64,000 bases of DNA from Agelas oroides (taxonomy: Eukaryota > Porifera > Demospongiae > Agelasida > Agelasidae): the NCBI GenBank assembly GCA_949130485.1, contig OX422197.1, forward strand, positions 566,001 through 630,000, read 5' to 3'. Each line of letters opens with the position of its first letter. Position 1 is the stretch's first letter. Below the pieces are notes generated by a model. It was not told the origin of the DNA and ran no database searches. It saw only the letters and a program-made list of their open reading frames with translations. This document shows, piece by piece, positions 14,353 through 49,800 of the stretch. Made by a program: the position numbers and the translations under genes.

Positions 14353-14599
14353 AGCTGCAAGAGCAGAATAGAGAGAGTGTTTTTATGAATCAAACCAAAT
14401 TGGGAGCTACAATGCATGCAGCCTCTGTGGGAAGCCTTAACTCACCAGTTATGCATGGCAGCTAGCTTTGCAGATCCAAGATGCCCTGAGAAAATTAAAA
14501 TTGTTTCGCATAATTAGAGAGCGTAACAAAAAGGCGAAAAGTGAACTGTGAAAAGACAAAAGTGAGCTAGCGAAACTGTCTGGTACGTCGGCAGTTTCA
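14353..14599. promoter_or_regulatory. Divergent promoter region, C6orf136-like / DHX40
   Basis: These 247 bp separate the start codons at 14352 (minus) and 14600 (plus). Both genes must be transcribed outward from here. No TATA box is evident. Confidence 0.5.
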
Positions 14600-16774
14600 A
14601 TGGATGAGAGTTTTTCAAAAAAGCTCCCAATCCAAGACTACCAACAAGAGTTAATTGAAGCGGTTCAAAACTCTCAGTGTGTTGTTATCACGGGCGAGAC
14701 AGGATGTGGCAAGACCACACAGTTTCCACAGTTTCTCTACAAGGCTGGGTTCAGCAAAGAGGGTATGATTGGTGTCACCCAACCCCGCAGAGTTGCAGCC
14801 ATCTCAGTCACTCACAGAGTCTCCCATGAGATGGGTACTAGACTTGGGGAGGAGGTTGGGTATCAGGTTCGTTTTGACGACTGCTCCTCAGCTGCAACCA
14901 AAATCAAATACATGACTGATGGTTGCCTTTTAAGGGAATTTCTAGACGACCAGGAACTCTCGAGGTATGGCGTCATTGTTTTAGACGAGGCACATGAAAG
15001 GAGTTTAGCAACTGACATCCTCTTTGGTCTTGTGAAGAAACTGCTCGAGAGGCCAGTTTCTGAAATGAAGAGTAGAAAGTTACCACTGAAGGTTGTTATC
15101 ATGTCTGCAACTCTGGATGCAGAGAAGTTCTCAACGTTCTTTGCATCGTGTCCAGTCTTCACGATACCGGGTCGTACGTACCCCATTAGTCACCATTACT
15201 GCAACACGGATGATAACTTTGACCCTGAAAAACTGACCTACTTGTCACAAGTCACTCGTGTTGTAATGGATATTCATCTAGATCAACCACAGGGAGATAT
15301 ACTGGTGTTTTTAACAGGGCAGGCAGAAATTGAAAGCACTTGTAACCGACTCTTTAAGGTAGCTGAGACGATCGATTATGAGCATGACATACGGTGCAAA
15401 GGAATTAGAGGGGTGTTGATTTTACCTCTGTATGGCGCACTGGCTACTGAACAGCAGCAGAGGGTCTTTGCTCCAGTGGACAAGGGGATCCGTCGCGTTA
15501 TCGTGGCCACGAACATTGCTGCTACTTCTCTCACAATAGATGGGATCGTGTACGTGATCGACAGTGGCTACGTCAAGCAGCTTGCCTACAACCCTCGCAC
15601 CGGTTTGGATAGTTTAGAGATTGTTCCTATTGCCAAATCTGAAGCCATCCAGCGAACAGGTCGTGCAGGAAGAACAGCCCCAGGAAAATGCTTCAGATTG
15701 TACAGCAAAAAGTTCTATGAGCAAATGGACGAAACTACCGTTCCAGAAATCCAGCGGACAAGCCTCACAAGTGTGATTCTGAGCCTGAAGTGTATGGGGA
15801 TTGCTAATGTACTTGAGTTCCAGTATCTGGACCCTCCGGAGGAAAGAATGATACTGGAGGCTCTTCGACAGCTGTATTATTTTCAAGCCTTGAACCAGGA
15901 CGGTAATGTCACAGCATTAGGGAGACAGCTGGTCGAATTCCCCCTGCAGCCAAGTCTCGCTCGAGTGCTGATCCGGTCCAAGCAGCTGGGTTGTGAGGAA
16001 GCTGTGATCCCTATTATAGCAATGCTGTCTGTAGAGAACGTGTTTATCAGACCATCGACTAAAGAAGAAGCTGCGCGAGCGCTGGAAGTTCATAAGGAGT
16101 TGGCAGAGGCAGGAGGAGGGACGAATGACTTTGCTACCTTGCTTGCAATCTATAAGCTTGCGACTGATCATTGGAACATGAAACGCTGGTGCAGAGAAAA
16201 CTTTGTTCATTGGAGAGCAATCAAAACTGCTCAAAGCATATGTGCACAGCTTGAATCAATCCTTGTGAGACAGACGATTGAGGTGGAAACAGACAGAAGT
16301 AGTTCTCCTGTTAGCCAGAGAGTGCGGCAGGCACTATGCTTTGGCCTGTTTGGGAACGTGGCTCGAATTGCACTAGGGAGACGCAGCTTTCGGACAATGG
16401 ATGGCCACAGCACCATTTCCTACATCCACCCAGGTTCAGTGCTGTTTGGCTGTGAGGAGTCTCTAGACTGGGTTCTGTACCATGAGCTTGTTGACACTGC
16501 CAAAACCTACATGAGAACAGTGTGCCCCATTCGCTATGCATGGGTGAAGGCACTGCTACCACAGCTACATGAAGTGGATGTGTATAGACTGAGTGAGTGC
16601 GAGAGGAAGCGACCAAGGAGCGAAAATGATCCTGAACTCTTGCCAAGCTCCAAGAGAACTGAAATTTCCCAAGTGCTACAAGAAGAGGGTGGACGTGAGG
16701 GGTTGCAAGAGAGAGCTGTCGCTGCTAGAGAACGGTACTTGGCAAGAAAGGCACTCAGAGAACAGACTTTATAG
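14600..16774 (+). CDS. DHX40: DEAH-box RNA helicase DHX40, intronless
   Basis: A single frame encodes 724 residues (human 779). It has the superfamily 2 DEAH motifs in order: Walker A TGETGCGKTT near residue 31-40, TQPRRVA (Ia), VLDEAHERS with DEAH at 129-132 (II), MSATLDAEK (III), FLTGQAEIE (IV), ATNIAATSLTIDGI (V) and QRTGRAGRT (VI), then winged-helix, ratchet and OB-fold regions. DHX40-specific stretches include GYQVRFDDCSS, KYMTDGCLL, MDIHL and FIRPSTKEEA. The enzyme is an ATP-dependent RNA helicase; human DHX40 has been linked to mRNA surveillance and splicing-related roles. It keeps every catalytic motif although it has no introns, which suggests an old retrocopy that replaced the parent, or intron loss. 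Confidence 0.95.
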   Translation: MDESFSKKLPIQDYQQELIEAVQNSQCVVITGETGCGKTTQFPQFLYKAGFSKEGMIGVTQPRRVAAISVTHRVSHEMGTRLGEEVGYQVRFDDCSSAATKIKYMTDGCLLREFLDDQELSRYGVIVLDEAHERSLATDILFGLVKKLLERPVSEMKSRKLPLKVVIMSATLDAEKFSTFFASCPVFTIPGRTYPISHHYCNTDDNFDPEKLTYLSQVTRVVMDIHLDQPQGDILVFLTGQAEIESTCNRLFKVAETIDYEHDIRCKGIRGVLILPLYGALATEQQQRVFAPVDKGIRRVIVATNIAATSLTIDGIVYVIDSGYVKQLAYNPRTGLDSLEIVPIAKSEAIQRTGRAGRTAPGKCFRLYSKKFYEQMDETTVPEIQRTSLTSVILSLKCMGIANVLEFQYLDPPEERMILEALRQLYYFQALNQDGNVTALGRQLVEFPLQPSLARVLIRSKQLGCEEAVIPIIAMLSVENVFIRPSTKEEAARALEVHKELAEAGGGTNDFATLLAIYKLATDHWNMKRWCRENFVHWRAIKTAQSICAQLESILVRQTIEVETDRSSSPVSQRVRQALCFGLFGNVARIALGRRSFRTMDGHSTISYIHPGSVLFGCEESLDWVLYHELVDTAKTYMRTVCPIRYAWVKALLPQLHEVDVYRLSECERKRPRSENDPELLPSSKRTEISQVLQEEGGREGLQERAVAARERYLARKALREQTL

Positions 16775-16907: not shown

Positions 16908-27373
<10,466 letters not shown>

Positions 27374-27508: not shown

Positions 27509-27542
27509 ACTGCGAATGCAACGAGACATTAATTTTAATATA

Positions 27543-30500
27543 CTAGACACTATACTCCAAGACATAGGCTGGCAACACACGGTACGTTTTGTACACAACA
27601 TATTCCTTCTGGCCACTGACATTGCCCTGAGGTGGGGAGGTAACCAAAAAAAAAATACAAGTTAATTTACAGTCAAAGATGTGTGTTGTGCTGGCTATAG
27701 TATATCCCAGTCATGTTAGCTGATGAACAGAATTGTCACTGTGGCACTTTCGCTCATCATGAGTTATGAGTCTTCTAGTACCATGCTTCCCTGACATGCT
27801 TCCAGCTGAGCACTTATTAACCTTGACAGAGTCATATGCCTTGGGCAACCCTGGCTCCTGTTTCTCTCTCATTGGCTCCCTCCTCAGGGAGGAGTTGTTG
27901 GTCCCTCGAGGGTACTCCTGGATGGGAGGGAAGGTGACTACTAAATGGGCAGACACGTTTCTGGGGTACTTCTCTTTGGACTGGGAATGAGACTATAACC
28001 CACAATGTTTGGGAATGTACCCTTCCTGCTGCAAGGAACCATACTCTCGTACCTTGATGTCTCCCAGCAACACATAACAAGCAAACACTTGTCTGGGGTT
28101 TCCTTTTTTCCAATAATGGTCACACTTTTTAGGGTCATCACTAGGAGGAAGGAGAAGTGCAAGAATCATACAAGAGTCAACACAGGGGAGAAGCACAGAG
28201 CTAGTAATAAAAAGACAGCTGTGAAGTCTTTCACAGAAATTGCTTGCCTGAAGTATATCCCCTTTCCAAAGTTTCCAAAATCATCCTTGTAATTTTTTCC
28301 ACTCAGCCTCTGGTCAAGTCCCTCCTCACAAATCACCTCCTTACTGGCAGATGTAGTGTGGTAGAGCAACGTTTCATTGAGATCACGCCCTGCTGGACGC
28401 TCATCCCTCATTGATTGCCTCTCGAAATGGAAGCGATTCCACAACTTCTGGTTCTGAATCTGCTGCACCTTGGTGACCATGTACCCAGCTCTAGCGAAGG
28501 GGGCCATCACTTGGGTCCACTTTTCAGAGGCAGGAGAGACGTCTATCAAGTGGTACTTTCTCACAGCGTTGGGAGCACAGTTGGGACACACAGTCCACCA
28601 AGGAGGAGGAGGGGCGTGAGTGACTGTGTGTGTTGCAGAAAGACGTGGAGGTTCTCTACTATTGGAAAACTAGCTAACGTTTCAACTGAATATTTCAGTA
28701 GCCACTTGATGACAATTTCAAATTGGTAACAGAAAACATTCTTTCCATTTACACTGAGAAGACACTGAAACATATCGTGACATGCACTCAACAACTAAAC
28801 AAAGAGCTGTGCAACAGTAGTATAGTCCTACAAAACAGACCTACCAGTGGTAGAGGGGTGGGTCCCCTTCTTAGGTAGCCGGGTCACCTTGAAACAGATG
28901 CTAAACCCATTGATCTCTCTGAGGAAAACAAGCATTCATTGTGTTGAACCCTCACAGTACACAATTTTGGAACTACCTCTTAATTACCAGCAGGTGTATA
29001 TTGATTGCTACACGTACGGCAGTCTCCGGTATCCGGCAGGAACGTCCTCTTTCCTGGAGGGGCTGAGGACTACTATGTCGGTCACTGCTTGAGTTGCCTG
29101 CTCCAGGGGAGTGAACTCAGCTAGAAGTTGCTTTGAACTGAATGCCTTGGTGTCTATGTAGGAATAAAACCTGTCCACACAAACCTACACAGGGGTCCTT
29201 TGCAAACCAATATACAGTAACCTCTATCACAGGCCAAACCACACAGTGGTACAGCTTTTTGCTGACACAGTCCTAGGCACTTACTGTCATCGTGAGTGTA
29301 CGTCAGTGCTGCATAGCCAAAGGGAACTTCATCACTGGAAGATATCACCTTTAGTTCTGTAAGTGCAACACGACCCTAAGCAGACAAAACACCATCTAGA
29401 TGTAGATCGTGTGTGTGTATGCTGTGTGTGTCTCACTCTGGTGGGTGCAGGTGACTTCTTGGTGAAGCAAAGGTACCGTCTGGTGTGTCCTAACCTCCCT
29501 TCAGGGAAATCTGCCCTCCTCCCATCAGCAGTGTTCTTGAGCTATGGAAGAAGGAGCAGAGACTGACCTAACCATAGACAGTAGTCATCATGACTAATGT
29601 TACATAAAATTTCAGCACATAAAAGGTTAAACACACCGTTGTAAAGTGGTCTGGGGCTCTTTCCTTCTTGGACAAAATGAGTATGTCTGTGATCACAAGG
29701 TCCATTATCGACTCTGTAAGTGTGTAGATGAAAACTTCAAAGACGTATGTATGATGTGCAGTCAACAACTAGAAAGAGACAGAATGTGGTCTTGGATCAC
29801 ATCACGGACAGAATTCCTACCAGCAGAAGTCAAGGGAGGAGAGGAATGGGTACCCTTCATAGGTAGTCGGGTTACCTTGAAACAGATACTAAATCCATTG
29901 ATCTCTCTATGAAAAAACAATCATTGTCATAGCACAGATGTTTGAAATGCCTCTTAATATAATGAAGGTGTGGAATGTTTGGAGTACACGTACGGCAGTC
30001 TCTGGTATCCGGCAGGAACGTCCTCTTTCCTTGAGGGGCTGAGGACTACTACGCCAGTCACTGCTTGGGTCACCTCCTCGAGGGGGGTGAACTTGGCCAG
30101 AAGCTGCTTTGAACTGAATGCCTTGGTGTCTATATATGAATAAAAATTAACAACAAAACTGGCTGCATGAACTCTGTAAATCTCCACATAAAACAAACAG
30201 TTAGCCTTACTCCCAGCCTCAACCCACAATCATGTTATTTGTGGTATGTACTGTGGAGAGCATACTCACTTGCAGACACTTAGCTTTCTGTGCACTGTGT
30301 AGTGGCTAAGGCACTTACTGTCATCGTGAGTGTATGTCAGTGCTGCATAGCCAAAGGGGACATTATTATTGGAAGAGACCACCTTTAGTTCTGTCAGAGC
30401 AACACGGCCCTAATAGGTAAAAACAAAAACAAATCCACCTGTTATTAAACACAAATGTGTTGTTGATAGGTGTGACCATGTGTGTCCCTCACTCTAGTGG

Positions 30501-31563
30501 GTGCAGGTGACCTGTTGGTGAAGCAAATGTACCGCTTATTGTGTCCCAGCATCCCTTCAGGGAAATCTGCCTTTCTCCCATCAGTAGTGTTCTCCAGCTA
30601 TGGAAGAACAGTGAGTATAACCTAACCACATGTAGATAGCAGATGTCCTTCTAAGACAATTCACACAAATACCATACTCAGCTAGGGTGAAGGGTGCTCA
30701 CCACTGTAAAGTGGGCTGGGGTTCTTTCCTTCTTAGCCAAAATGAGTAGGTCTGTGATCACAAGGTCCATTATCGACTCCAAGACTGTCCAGTCTTCGTT
30801 GTCAGTGTATGAAAACCATGCATGCTGCAAAACAAACACAAACAGTCTGTCCATTTGCAGATGATGCATGACGACTCCTGAACAGTAGCAAGTATTTAAA
30901 GTTTAGGCCTACGAGATCGACCGGGATCAACCGTGTCAGTCTCGTGAACATGCAAAAAGAGGACTGTAATATGGGGTGCCGTTTGTGTCAAAACTCCGGT
31001 TTTTAGAAACCGGCGACCTTTACTAAACCTCGATCGATCTTTACTAAACATCGATCGATGTTTAGTAAACATCGATGTTGAGCAAAGATCGATCGATGTT
31101 TAGCATACATCGATCGATGTTTAGTAAAGATCGATGGATTGCCATTTCTAGTAGAGATCTATGGTGCTATATTAGCGTCAAAATTTAACAGTATTCTGAC
31201 TACCTGTGATCGACCGATGTTTAATAAAGATCGATCGATGTTTAGTAAAAATCGATCGAGGTTTAGTAAAGGTCGCGGGTTTGATAAACATTGCTAAAAA
31301 CTGGAGTTTTGTGTATAAACAACTACAGATCATGTACAGGGTTCTTACATATAGTCGATTACGGAATAAAACAGGAGCGAAGGATCGGCTGCGCAAAACC
31401 ACAGACCGCAATACTCTAGTTTCGTGGGCCCGACTAGCAAAACGCACCTACTCCATCTTCTGCAGCTTTTCTTTAGTCAATCTCTTTGCTAGCAAATTTG
31501 AAGCAGCGGGGACTAATACAGGAAGTAAACTATAGAGCAAAGTGTTCATACCTGCAGCAGCAT
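27543..31563 (-). CDS. PARP-type ADP-ribosyltransferase with two MABP domains
   Basis: Well-supported exons are 30824-30702, 30597-30493, 30409-30319, 30129-29994, 29906-29821, 29713-29637, 29541-29437, 29375-29285, 29153-29018, 28918-28845, 28623-28248, 28140-28053, 27917-27822 and 27626-27543. They encode 555 residues in consistent phase. The start is uncertain: the phase-compatible candidate is a 12-nt exon at 31563-31552 (MLLQ). Residues about 5-184 and 185-345 are two MABP domains, each with SIMDLVITD, RYxCFT, VPFGYAALTYTHDD and INGFSICFKVTRLP; their matching exons have equal lengths (105, 91, 136). A PARP catalytic domain follows: IQNQKLWNRFHFER, LLYHTTSASK, GKGIYF and EYVVYKTYRVLPAY, with His, Tyr and Glu of the triad present. 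The Gly that normally follows the His is Thr. The intron after exon 28623-28248 starts with GC. MABP domains bind membranes in MVB12 and DENND4 proteins, so membrane-localised ADP-ribosylation is an inference. Confidence 0.85.
30825..31551. other. Intergenic or first-intron stretch between the two PARP genes
   Basis: About 730 bp lie upstream of the first certain exon of the double-MABP PARP gene. A foldback element fills 30989-31311. On the minus strand at about 31506-31449 there is a short open stretch NLLAKRLTKEKLQKM that resembles the ubiquitin-binding-like motifs of the neighbouring PARP, but its phase does not fit the next exon. Confidence 0.5.
30989..31311. mobile_element. Foldback element with internal ATCGATCGATGTTTAGTAAA repeats
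   Basis: The ends are inverted copies (CAAAACTCCGGTTTTTAG on the left, CTAAAAACTGGAGTTTTG on the right), continuing into GACCTTTACTAAACCTCGAT and its complement. Inside, palindromic ATCGATCGAT cores followed by GTTTAGTAAA recur about six times in both orientations. No coding capacity. Confidence 0.8.
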
Positions 31564-31922: not shown

Positions 31923-34357
31923 TCAACATGTATACTCCATGATGAAGGCTGGCAACACACGGTATGTATTGTACACAATGTACTCATTCTGGCCAGTGAC
32001 ATTGCCCTGAGGTGGGAGGATTAGATATAAACAAATCAATCAATTGATTGTGTTGAGCATTTTAGTACATGCTACCTGATGCCACTCTCAACCTTGTTCC
32101 TAGACTCTTACCTGCATGGGTCCAAGAAGCGGTCACTCCCATAGGTACTGCACCTATAGGAGTGATCACCCCTTGATGGTACTCGCCTAGCTTCCAGTAT
32201 CTGGTGGGAATCGGGCTACTTAATTAGGTGGGGGGTCCAGGTGGCTTCTGTCTATTACATGTTTCAGCTAAGCTACAAGGTTCTGTCCAGCTGGCTGACC
32301 TTGACAGAGTCATATGTCTTGGGCAACCCTGGCTCTTGTTGCTCTCTCATTGGCTCCCTCTGCAGGGAGGGGTTGGTAGTCCCTTGAAGGTACTCCTGAA
32401 TGGGGAGGAAGGTGACAGCATGATTAACTGCATGTAGACTCGTTCCCAGGTCACTTCCATTTGGTCTGGGAATGAGACCAGTGACAAGGTATTTAAAAAA
32501 AAAAACACACACCAATAATGCTGAATCATTTTAGAAACTGCCTTGCTTGTGATCGATTATACCTTGATGTCTCCTAGCAACACATAGCAGGCAAACATTA
32601 GTCTGGGTCTGCCTTGTCCCCAATATTGGTTACACTTGATAGGGTCATCACTGGAGAACGGAGAGAGAAGGAAGAGGGGAAGGGGTTGAAGGAGGAAGAG
32701 GGGAGGAAGAGAAGAAGAGAAAAGGGATGGGTGGAAAGGTAGAACAGAGCTCTGCAATATTTCAAGCAAAATTTGCTTGCCTGAAGTATATCCCACGGCC
32801 GAACCTCCCCTGTCTGCTCAGCCTCTGGTCAAGTCCCTCCTCACAAATCACCTCCTTACTGGCAGATGTAGTGTGGTAGAGCAACATTTCATTGAGATCA
32901 CGCCCTGCTGGACCCTCATCCCTCATTGATTGCCTCTCGAAATGGAAGCGATTCCACAACCTCTGGTTCTGAATCTGCTGCATCTTGGTGACCATGTACC
33001 CAACTCTAGTGAAGGGGGCCGTCACTTGGCTCCACTCTTCAGAGGCTGGAGAGACGTCTATCAAGTGGTATTTTCTCACAGCGTTGGGAGCACAGTTGGG
33101 ACACACAGTCCACCAAGGAGGAGGAAGATTGTCGGTGCTCTGTATTTGGTCAAAAGGTCGTGTTTCATTTTCTTCATTTTGCAGTTGTTTGGCTAGCAGC
33201 TCATCCATGTCAGTATCTGGTTGCTTGTTCCACTCTTGGTTCACACTGAGAGCAACCTCATAATCTCGTGCAAGTTCCAGAGAAGTCAAAGCGTCTCCGA
33301 CACACCTCTCATCATGGGACAGTTCAACTGCTGGTGTGTTGTGCTCCTCCTGCAGATGTTGTGCTAACAAAAGGTCAGAATCCAGCTGCTGATGATCAGC
33401 GTTGCTTGGCAACGCCTGTGGGTGGTCAGGCAATGGCTGTGAATCTAACTCTTGCAACTCCTGAGCTAGCAGGAAATCTGACTCTGTAGAGGGGCAGTCA
33501 GGGTGCTGAGACTGGGCCTCTATATCTTGGAGTTCTTTGGCTAGGATATGGTCAGACGCAATCTGGTCGTCATCGGGGGCAACAGAAGGTGTATCCAACA
33601 CCTGCAGCTGCTTGGCAGACAGGAAATCTGATTGGACAGCGTCAACATGTGTAGGGTCTGAGTGTAGCTCATCAGTGGCTCCACTGTCAAAGGCGACCAT
33701 CTCTTCCTCTCTGCCCTGTGTCTCTATCGCCTCTGGACTAGTGACGGTAGCGCTTCTATTGTGAAAAGTTTCTGGATGCTCTTGGATAGAAGAGGCCACC
33801 TGATCACGTCTGTTTGGAAGGAGAGGAGAGGAGGTAGGAAGACCTCCATCAGCCTGCACTCCATGCATTGGCGGGCAGTCGACCGTAGCTTCCTGCTCAA
33901 CCAGCTGCTGTGCTATCAGCCAATCGAGGGAGGTGTCCGGATGGGTCATGGCTGTCTCACTAAGAGTCATGGCTAGGAGGAGATCTTGAGACTCACGGTC
34001 AAATCTCTCAAATGCCCGCCTCTGCTCCTCAAGCTCAGCCACTGAGAAGTGTAAACCATCTGCTCCTGCAAGTAGGTAAATACTCATATGGCTTCACCCC
34101 TGACACTAGCATGTCTAGATCCCAGATCCTTCTGACCATGGGCTCCAGACTAGTAGCCGCTAGAAATACCCACAAGCCAGACCCAACCAAACCCCAGCGA
34201 GGATCGCTTTCAGTAATCCCTCCTTCCCTGTACATGATACTGACAGCGATCCACGCTAGCTTTGGTTTGCGGGCTGGTTGTACCAGGAGTCACACTGAGC
34301 TTCTCCCTTATTGGCAGTGACACTAACTAGCTATGTACCATCAGACGAGTCCTCCAT
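31923..34357 (-). CDS. PARP-type ADP-ribosyltransferase with MIU/UIM-like motif array
   Basis: Five exons (34357-34339, 34065-32781, 32650-32563, 32395-32300 and 32006-31923) encode 523 residues. Exon 1 is a 19-nt exon (MEDSSD plus one base). Residues about 35-310 carry eight Asp-anchored motifs: DLLLAMTLSET, DWLIAQQLVEQE, DFLSAKQLQVLD, DHILAKELQDIE, DFLLAQELQELD, DLLLAQHLQEEH, DYEVALSVNQE and DELLAKQLQNEE. They match the pattern of MIU (inverted UIM) or UIM ubiquitin-binding helices. The PARP catalytic domain begins near PPPWWTVCPNCAP and has LLYHTTSASK, GRGIYF and EYIVYNTYRVLPAF. It is close to the adjacent PARP gene: the last three exons are 88, 96 and 84 nt in both. The intron after exon 2 is GC-AG. 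A ubiquitin-directed ADP-ribosyltransferase is the natural inference. No MABP domain is present. Confidence 0.87.
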
Positions 34358-46800: not shown

Positions 46801-49800
46801 TAGTTCTACTGTAGAAGTTTCTTTCCTGTCACTCTACTACACACTCTCCCATTCACACCCCTACCCCTCACACACTCACATCCCCACTTCCTCCCATTCA
46901 CGCATCCCCACTCCTCATCCAGGCGCAGCTGAGGTCGCAGCTGGCGTCTCTAGAGCATGCTCTGAGAAACAAAGAGGCGGAGGTGGAGAGCATGATGCAG
47001 ACAATTGGGCTCAAGGACAAAACCATCAAGGTAACATACTGTAGTCACACACAAACATTGACACAAGCAGGCTCATAGGCTCACTGCTGTGCAGCACTCT
47101 TGAGAACTACCTATAGGTTGATGGAACATAGACTGTCAGCTTCAGTCCCGGGCCCTTTCTCATGATTTTTCAGACAGACCTGAAAACAAAGCGAGCATTT
47201 CAGCTTGAGCCTTCTTCGCCTGCACTGTCTATGTCCATCAACCTGAGTTCTGAACGTGATGCTATGTTACTCTGTGTTAATATCTTCTCAGGAGCTACAG
47301 CAGCAGTTGCAGCGGCTGATGAATGACAAGGCCAGACTGGAGGAAAGAGTGAGAGATCTTGAGGCAGAAAAGAACACCCTGGAGGTACACATGTGCAGAC
47401 TGCTGTCACATGACAGTCACATGACTACTAATTGAGTCTTATGATGGTCACATGACTACTAATTGAGTCATATTATGGTCACATGGGTACATTATTCTTT
47501 TCCAGAATGAGGTGGCAGGGTTACAGTCTCAGGCTCGAGTCTCCCACCTCTCATCTGAAGACCTCCAGTCCAAGCTGGCCCAGGCGTTTGGGGAGAGGGA
47601 AGACCTGGCTAGAAGGCTCAAAGTGGCCGAGGAAGCTCTCGGGGAGAAGGTACTAAAAACATACGGTTTGCAGTGAGTCTCTTGTGCCCAGACCCAACCC
47701 ACAAGGAATGGATCTGGCATAAATAAGCCCTTGGTCTTACTCCAAGGCTCAAGACTGTGTATACCTAGTGAGAACTCCAATTTGTTTCCGTCTCAGGGAG
47801 CAGCATATGATCAGGCGAGGGCTGCATGTGAGTCTCTCCAGGAGCAGATTAAGCGGCTGCAGAGGCAGTTGGCAGAGCTCTCCAGGAAGAGGGCAAGGGA
47901 AGTGGGCGTCAACACTTCCACCTCTCATACAGAACAATCCACTGGTGCTAGTGGAGCCGAGGTTGGTTTGGAGGGAGGAGAGAGGGAGACAAATTGCTTA
48001 GTCTAAGAGAAAGTGATTCCTCAAGTTTACTTTTCTTTTCCCCTCCTCTCAGCCTGGGTCAAGCTCAACCACCATGATCTTTGGTTCCCTCTCGGAGAAT
48101 CTTCTCCTCACCATCCTACAGCGGCTACAGGAGCTATACTCTGAGATCACAGCTGGCAGGGCTGATAGCAACCTTGCCACAAGGTAGGAGAGCAGATACG
48201 TCTCATTCCCAGACTATCACTGGGTCTGGGAATGAGACTACAACTCTGTACTCTTCATGACTGATTTGCTACACCTGTACAAGACGGGTGAGAACATTTC
48301 TTGAATATGTCTCATTCCCAGCCCTTCATCTGTGTCTGAGAATGAGATTCCTAACTGGCCAATTTCTTCCTCTCCCTCCTGCACTCCAGCTCTCTCTCCT
48401 CCAAGCTAGAGCACATCACAGAGCTACAGAGACACCTGGAGTCTAGCTTCCACCACAGCCCTCCACACGAAGGCAAACCTCCCTCCTCCACCAACACCAG
48501 CTACACCAATTACTACTTCACACGAGGAGAGGATGGAGACTCTTCTGATGGAGAACCGAGCCCAAAGAGAAGCAGCACCCCGAGATCACGCCCCAGTCCA
48601 AAAACCACTCCCAGGAAGGCCTCGGACTTGAGTGGTCCTCTCCATGACGCCATCCAGCACATAAGTGCCTTGCAGTCTGAATTGGAAGAAGTGAAACGTT
48701 GGAATGAAGCCTTGCAAGCTAAACTCGATGAGACTGGTCGCACACGAGATGTCGGTGTGGGGATGGAGAAAGACGGTGAGGCTCGACCCCAGAGTCCTCC
48801 TCATGCCCCACTCTTTGGCCGTGAAAAGTACCTGGAGCTACAGAAGGAAGTTGACCGCCTACTTGCCGAACTGGAAACAGAGAGAGAGCGGTCGCTTGCG
48901 GAGAAAAGGCTGCAGGAGAGGCTACAATCCCAGGTGAGGGAGGCGGAGGAGAAAGTGGGGAGTTTAGAGAGGCAGCTTCGCCTGGCCATGAGTCGAGATG
49001 CTTCCACCTCCACTGATTTGGAAACGATTGAAATGCTCCAACAAGAAGTTGAGAGACAGAAACGAGAACTGGATGAAGCTAGGGGCACCATTGCTGCCAT
49101 GAGGGGGCAACTGGAAGCCAAAATGGATGAAAACCAGCAACTGAGGGAGGAGCTTGGTGATTCGGGGCTTGACGAGAAGGGGGCATCCCCTCAGAGGGAG
49201 GATAAAGCTACTTTTGCATCCACCTCTGTGCCACACCTGCTCACTCCAGACCACACCCCGGCAAGAAACTTGTCAGACAGCTGGACGAGTCCGGGTAGGG
49301 GAGCTACCATGGGTGAACACCCGGAGGTGAGAGCTCTCAGAGAGAAGCATGAAGAAGTGACACGATTAAATCTCGAGCTACAACGAAAATGCCAAGAGCA
49401 GCTGAAGCGATCACCCCCACAATCGCGACCTACAAGTGGTGAACAGTCGACCCTGCAGTCTCGGCTGAGGGAGATGGAACGATTACAATCGGAGATGATG
49501 GAACGTGAGCGCACCCTTCTGTCACAGTTGAGAGAGAGCGAGGCAAGGTTTATCGAGAGGGAAGGAGAGTGGAAGGCCAGGGAATCGTCTCTTCACATGC
49601 AAGTGATGGATCTGGAAAGTCGGCTGAATGTGGCAGGGAAGAGTGGCGAGAACCTTCAGAGCAAACTAGCGGAAGCCCTGTCTGCAAACAGAGCCAAAGA
49701 CGAGGAAATCCAAAAGTGAGAAAATTGTATCAACATGTAGCTAGGCAACTAAACTCTATAGTGTTAGAGAGTAAAACTCGTTTTGACCTCCACTTCTCCC

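Follow-up and report, generated by a model that had tools for sequence, protein, structure and literature searches.

Can a single gene join the membrane-binding domains of an ESCRT-I subunit to an ADP-ribosyltransferase, and if so, where did its parts come from and what might its product do? These questions are raised by a stretch of 64,000 nucleotides from the sponge Agelas oroides (contig OX422197.1, C15:566001-630000), which we call the window and whose positions are used below unless C15, C16 or C19 is given. On its minus strand, 14 exons running from 30820 to 27543 assemble into a single open frame of 553 residues with a TAG stop at 27543. The predicted protein consists, in order, of a MABP domain of about 150 residues, a further MABP domain and a PARP catalytic domain, with short linkers between them. 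We refer to this as the fusion gene, and we consider it probable that it is a young chimeric protein-coding gene, giving rise to a membrane-targeted ADP-ribosyltransferase that has an H-Y-E triad and would lie outside ESCRT-I.

Domains and exon structure of the fusion gene

In order to establish the identity of the domains, we compared the translated exons with Pfam profiles and with sequences of solved structures. The MVB12 profile PF10240 matched the fusion protein in two stretches (E 3.8e-60) and also matched each MABP block alone (7.5e-28 and 9.8e-30), in both cases over profile positions 3-142. Because each block is significant on its own, the matches are not due to chance, and the alternative of two half-domains was rejected. 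The two blocks, MABP1 and MABP2, are 84% identical, and the closest solved relative of MABP1 is MVB12B (3tow, 2.1e-12), so that membership in the MABP domain family follows from both profile and structure-linked comparison. The catalytic part scored above the family cut-off of the PARP profile PF00644 (E 2.9e-14; 53.5 bits where 26.7 is required; profile positions 20-198 of 199), which places it in the PARP (ARTD) superfamily. Its closest solved sequence is PARP12 (9.8e-19; 71 bits), followed by PARP14 (48 bits), PARP15 (44 bits) and TNKS2 (40 bits). WWE, zinc-finger and macro domains had no Pfam match in the fusion protein at E <= 1. The sequence-only reading had proposed exactly this MABP-MABP-PARP content, which the profile and solved-sequence matches bear out; it had also named the lack of a MABP match by profile search as an outcome that would speak against it, and the search returned two.

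MABP1 is encoded by exon 1 (30702..30820) and exons 2 to 5 (30493..30597, 30319..30409, 29994..30129 and 29821..29906), MABP2 by exons 6 to 10 (29637..29713, 29437..29541, 29285..29375, 29018..29153 and 28845..28918), and the PARP domain by exons 11 to 14 (28248..28623, 28053..28140, 27822..27917 and 27543..27626). PF10240 supports the assignment of exons 2 to 4 and 7 to 9, and PF00644 that of exons 11 to 13. Intron 10 (28624..28844) is the fusion junction. No stop or frameshift interrupts the 14 exons, 12 of the 13 introns are of the GT-AG type, and all phases agree; the remaining intron is GC-AG, with its GC donor after 28248. An ATTAAA hexamer begins at 27539, four bases past the final stop. 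The exon blocks drawn by the sequence-only reading, including the ends at 28845 and 28623 and the unbroken phase, were reproduced. Its overall span of 27543..30824 needs a qualification at the 5' limit, where exon 1 as drawn has no start codon ahead of the MABP domain. The 5' end is thus open, with in-frame ATGs at 30869 and 30854 (both upstream of 30824) and at 30770, where the MABP domain starts. A tandem array with periods from 12 to 102 bases lies directly downstream of the gene, at 26833-27178.

Sources of the MABP and PARP parts

A whole-genome family search with PF10240 gave no match, but 14 control genomes were equally silent, and protein queries were used instead. The MABP2 query was searched against 259 Mb in 141 contigs at E <= 1, and the resulting counts are a lower bound because distant MABP domains would escape. 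At least 14 genome pieces resemble MABP2; nine of the 14 lie within the fusion gene and the other five in one MVB12 gene (C15:636.6-638.4 kb). This gene (G000:C15:636531-639113) lies outside the window on the same contig, about 40 kb away and on the opposite strand. It has nine exons, encodes 267 residues and shows the MVB12 layout of a MABP domain plus a C-terminal UMA region; we take it as the MVB12 orthologue because PF10240 is matched over positions 3-251 of 253. The best PF10240 stretch of the fusion gene covers only 3-152.

The DNA similarity between the two genes starts inside the coding part of exon 1 (from 30801 on), includes exons 2-5 and extends over much of the intervening introns, and exon layout and phases inside the MABP domain are identical. 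Judged by these comparisons, MVB12 is the source of the fusion gene's MABP domains. Exon 5 still carries a short remnant of the tail found in its MVB12 counterpart (tblastn E 0.016), and the DNA similarity between the two blocks begins one base ahead of exon 6. Over 31 bases, intron 10 resembles MVB12 intron 6 (local score 42, where 300 mononucleotide shuffles reached at most 26), and introns 5 and 10 of the fusion gene resemble each other (score 27, at most 23 in 300 shuffles). MVB12 intron 6 is in phase 1, as are fusion introns 5 and 10 (counted in the coding frame). Taken together, the intron matches and the shared phase suggest that the copied unit probably spanned the interior of exon 1 into MVB12 intron 6. 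The MABP piece may have been duplicated after a single copying event, or taken from MVB12 on two occasions; MABP2 is nearer to MVB12 (synonymous divergence, dS, 0.25) than to MABP1 (dS 0.30).

What lies beyond the copied unit in MVB12 is not seen in the fusion gene. MVB12 exons 6-9 had no DNA match within the window at E <= 0.1, and the best tblastn match of the UMA part (E 0.036) is at 47548, far off and on the other strand, the value inside the fusion gene being 5.4. The persistence of a UMA region, which marks MVB12 as an ESCRT-I subunit, was therefore rejected.

The closest relative of the PARP half, which we call PARP-B, adjoins the fusion gene just upstream (about 34.1-31.9 kb, minus strand). 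Its large exon (32781..34093, the latter position marking how far the frame stays open and not a proven exon start) encodes MIU-like motifs followed by the beginning of the PARP domain, and the remaining exons at 32650-32563, 32395-32300 and 32006-31923 complete the frame with a TGA stop. The fusion PARP (PARP-A) and PARP-B share DNA similarity from 28610 and 33125, respectively, onward, which is 13 bases into exon 11, introns being partly included; no match was found ahead of these positions in the region compared. The GC donor after 28248 is common to both genes.

A third copy is found on C16 (L045 8176-9864 and L046; G000:C16:6233176-6237095), with 60% identity in the first exon, and it also carries MIU-like motifs, a name that we presume fits these repeats. 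The pattern D..LA..LQ occurs seven times in PARP-B (six distinct) and four times in the C16 copy (three distinct), against means of 0.22 and 0.09 in 2000 shuffles, a contrast that is optimistic given that the pattern was written post hoc. No such motifs were noticed in the short linkers of the fusion gene. Since both PARP-B and the C16 gene have them, motifs followed by PARP are probably the older plan, from which the fusion gene appears to have lost the motifs while gaining MABP domains. We also considered whether the C16 PARP has MABP domains of its own, and rejected this, as its surrounding 17 kb contains no significant MABP match.

Several observations concern the surroundings of these genes. 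A GATCGATCGATGTTTAG-repeat-rich element lies upstream of the fusion gene at 31007-31282 (inverted-repeat arms of 68 nt, 94%), and a second one lies within MVB12 intron 2 (L043 6895-7534; arms of 114 nt, 96%); the element looks mobile, having seemingly inserted in both places. About 1 kb downstream of the C16 PARP, its last PARP exon occurs again. Seven more distant PARP matches (29-36% identity) are present at C19:6049508-6224162 (G000), of which five fall within open frames 1032-1491 residues long.

Catalytic site and the putative membrane role

The segments LLYHTT, GIYF and KEYVVY align with the positions in PARP12 that we take to form its catalytic triad, without gaps around the third residue, which gives an H-Y-E triad with H and Y in exon 11 and E in exon 14. 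All three positions are kept in PARP-A, PARP-B and the C16 copy. The residue after the catalytic H is usually G in PARPs, as seen for PARP12 in the alignment; here it is T (HTT in PARP-A and PARP-B, HTS in the C16 copy), and this change could weaken NAD binding. At the third triad position the E of all three sponge proteins is aligned with I in PARP12. A third residue other than E is given as the mono-transferase signature of clade 3, and the available part of that family survey records E in just one clade 3 protein, from Tetrahymena (PMC2964712). As E is so rare there, these PARPs lie outside clade 3 or are exceptional within it, and chain-forming ADP-ribosylation by the fusion PARP is possible.

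The fusion gene differs from each of the systems it resembles. Its MABP domains come with the exon layout of MVB12 (MVB12A/B), but they are two in number, no UMA match follows them and a PARP domain ends the protein. Clade 3 (PARP7 and PARP9 to PARP15) is a possible home of the catalytic domain: among solved structures, PARP12, PARP14 and PARP15 match it best, while the accessory domains searched for above gave no match and the third triad residue differs from that of PARP12. A MABP domain alongside another functional domain is also found in DENND4, which is not an ADP-ribosyltransferase. The same holds for MPEG1 (MACPF-MABP), whose lipid-binding hairpin is an insertion in a MABP domain described as somewhat divergent and binds negatively charged lipids (PMC7593815). 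PARP10 resembles the plan of PARP-B, in which ubiquitin-binding motifs precede the PARP domain; PARP10 has ubiquitin-interacting motifs (PMC4245714), those of PARP-B being MIU-like, with none noticed in the fusion gene linkers. The sequence-only reading knew of no described PARP with MABP domains, and the literature searched, judged by titles and abstract openings and with subscription papers thinly covered, likewise gave no MABP-PARP protein; a term search of the accessible text of two PARP surveys (PMC4245714 and PMC2964712) found no mention of MABP or MVB12.

How might such a protein act? A piece of MVB12 (the interior of exon 1 through exon 5 and part of intron 6) is present twice in tandem, and a copy of PARP-B-type catalytic exons lies behind it. 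The paired MABP domains may then hold the enzyme on MVB12-type membranes, two domains gripping more tightly, where it would ADP-ribosylate proteins; binding of acidic lipids is reported for relatives and may extend to the fusion MABPs by analogy. That the MABP domain itself binds ESCRT-I, as the sequence-only reading supposed, finds no support in the literature consulted, in which assembly of MVB12 into ESCRT-I is driven by its EBB/UMA regions (PMC4007767). With the UMA region missing, the product should stay out of ESCRT-I, so that it may have membrane recruitment and no ESCRT-I membership; with the MIU-like motifs missing, it should lack the ubiquitin binding that is probable for PARP-B. A fuller scenario, which we put forward only tentatively and hold to be rather doubtful as a whole, is that of a newborn enzyme whose two MVB12 domains bring an H-Y-E transferase to endosomal or plasma-membrane ESCRT sites, where its targets are cargo, lipid-associated proteins or ESCRT parts, possibly modified with chains rather than single units, its ubiquitin-reading N-terminus having been swapped for a membrane-reading one.

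Coding constraint, the junction and competing explanations

The ratio of nonsynonymous to synonymous divergence (dN/dS) is 0.27 between MABP1 and MABP2 (Fisher p 1e-5), and 0.23 and 0.21 between the MABPs and MVB12 (Fisher p 4e-7 and 2e-6), values that include constraint on MVB12 itself. The C16 PARP was left out of these estimates (PARP-A against C16 is saturated, and PARP-B against C16 has a dS of 4.6). Exons are 85-91% identical between blocks 1 and 2 and introns 68-77%; between PARP-A and PARP-B the four exons are 94.5, 83, 90 and 83% identical (326/345, 73/88, 86/96 and 69/83) and the introns 70.5, 71 and 72%. This pattern speaks for coding constraint on the fusion gene, stronger for the MABPs than for the PARP domain. 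The dS between the fusion parts and their parent genes is 0.18-0.35, by which a haplotype or assembly duplicate was rejected. Because these values are so low, the gene is probably young and lineage-specific, and the suggestion that the same fusion should be sought across early-branching animals is probably wrong in its expectation. Searches confined to viruses, bacteria and archaea gave pattern matches in 3, 39 and 38 stretches (for MABP1 in viruses, the PARP domain and a MABP alignment, respectively), with none confirmed as a relative.

Splicing across 28845-28623, with all 14 exons in one transcript, is what we infer. The phase-1 donor of exon 10 (28845/28844) is of moderate strength, with a score of 5.0 against a leave-one-out range of -1.6 to 11.6 for 19 other donors, and it is in phase. 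The frame of exon 11 does not stay open upstream, and its first in-frame ATG is at residue 36 of the PARP part; thus an exon further upstream is required for any product that is to contain the entire region common to PARP-A and PARP-B. Neither AATAAA nor ATTAAA occurs in introns 5 and 10, which says almost nothing, as only 0.15 are expected at the window's own rate. Several points nevertheless weigh against a functional one-transcript gene. The acceptor at 28623 is weak (score 1.0, with 20 other acceptors ranging from -2.7 to 14.7 and three of the 20 lower), which makes 28845/28623 the least certain of the gene's junctions as predicted from the DNA. An alternative in-frame acceptor at 28653 scores -1.6, and a higher-scoring one at 28655 (2.6) requires the poor donor at 28841 (-3.3); with several donor and acceptor pairs possible, the phase match at the junction is weak evidence. 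The ATG at residue 36 sits five residues before the Pfam match, which begins at residue 41, and a start there would retain nearly all of the Pfam PARP domain. Direct comparison of fusion intron 5 with MVB12 intron 6 is not significant (score 19; 32 of 300 shuffles as high), so that the extent of block 1 rests on intron 10. The exon-intron contrast between fusion gene and MVB12 is small (exons 84-97%, introns 67-93%, in gapped alignments, some to much longer introns), dN/dS between PARP-A and PARP-B is weakly below 1 (0.55, p 0.035), and catalytic activity is uncertain given the T after the catalytic H.

Some of these points would be accounted for by two adjacent genes at the locus. The first would be a truncated MVB12-like gene with one or two MABP domains that ends at exon 10 or beyond it; the second, a PARP gene, would either have a first exon of its own that escaped recognition or start at residue 36. 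The weak acceptor and the ATG shortly ahead of the Pfam match fit such an arrangement, as do a stop met within 20 bases when reading continues beyond the exon 10 donor and an ATG inside exon 6 that could start MABP2 alone. We nonetheless regard it as unlikely: the MABP and PARP parts are just 221 bp apart, the donor at 28845 is moderate and in phase, intron 10 matches a phase-1 intron of MVB12, and starting at residue 36 would cost about 15 residues that align with PARP12.

Two further explanations concern the product rather than the transcript. The enzyme may be inactive, the gene then providing a decoy on the membrane that takes up sites there in competition with MVB12; the T in place of the usual G would suit this, and inactive family members such as PARP9 are described (PMC2964712), yet H, Y and E are kept in all three sponge copies, and we consider a decoy improbable. 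Alternatively, real pieces may have been joined in a chimeric pseudogene or non-functional duplication whose product is unmade or useless. The recency of the parents, the modest constraint on the PARP part and an exon 1 in which the MVB12 parent's first and second ATGs are both missing are in keeping with that, but 14 exons free of stops and frameshifts, the low dN/dS between MABP1 and MABP2, and exons more conserved than introns, both between copies and against PARP-B, make it quite improbable. A young chimeric coding gene with a membrane-targeted transferase thus remains the explanation that we favour.

Elsewhere in the window, on the plus strand, a 942-residue open frame at 8881-11706 matches the death effector domain profile PF01335 in two stretches (36.2 bits; cut-off 35.9), and a 740-residue uninterrupted helicase frame at 14552-16771 (DEAD, Helicase_C, HA2 and OB-fold) is unlike the exon-rich genes around it.

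Since 46 kb of a single contig still hold both parents and product, the way in which a new domain combination arose can be traced here down to the introns. If expressed, the fusion gene would connect the domain by which the ESCRT-I subunit MVB12 binds membranes with ADP-ribosylation. Together with PARP-B it would offer a natural comparison, in which catalytic domains that differ little are directed to membranes in one case and probably to ubiquitin in the other.

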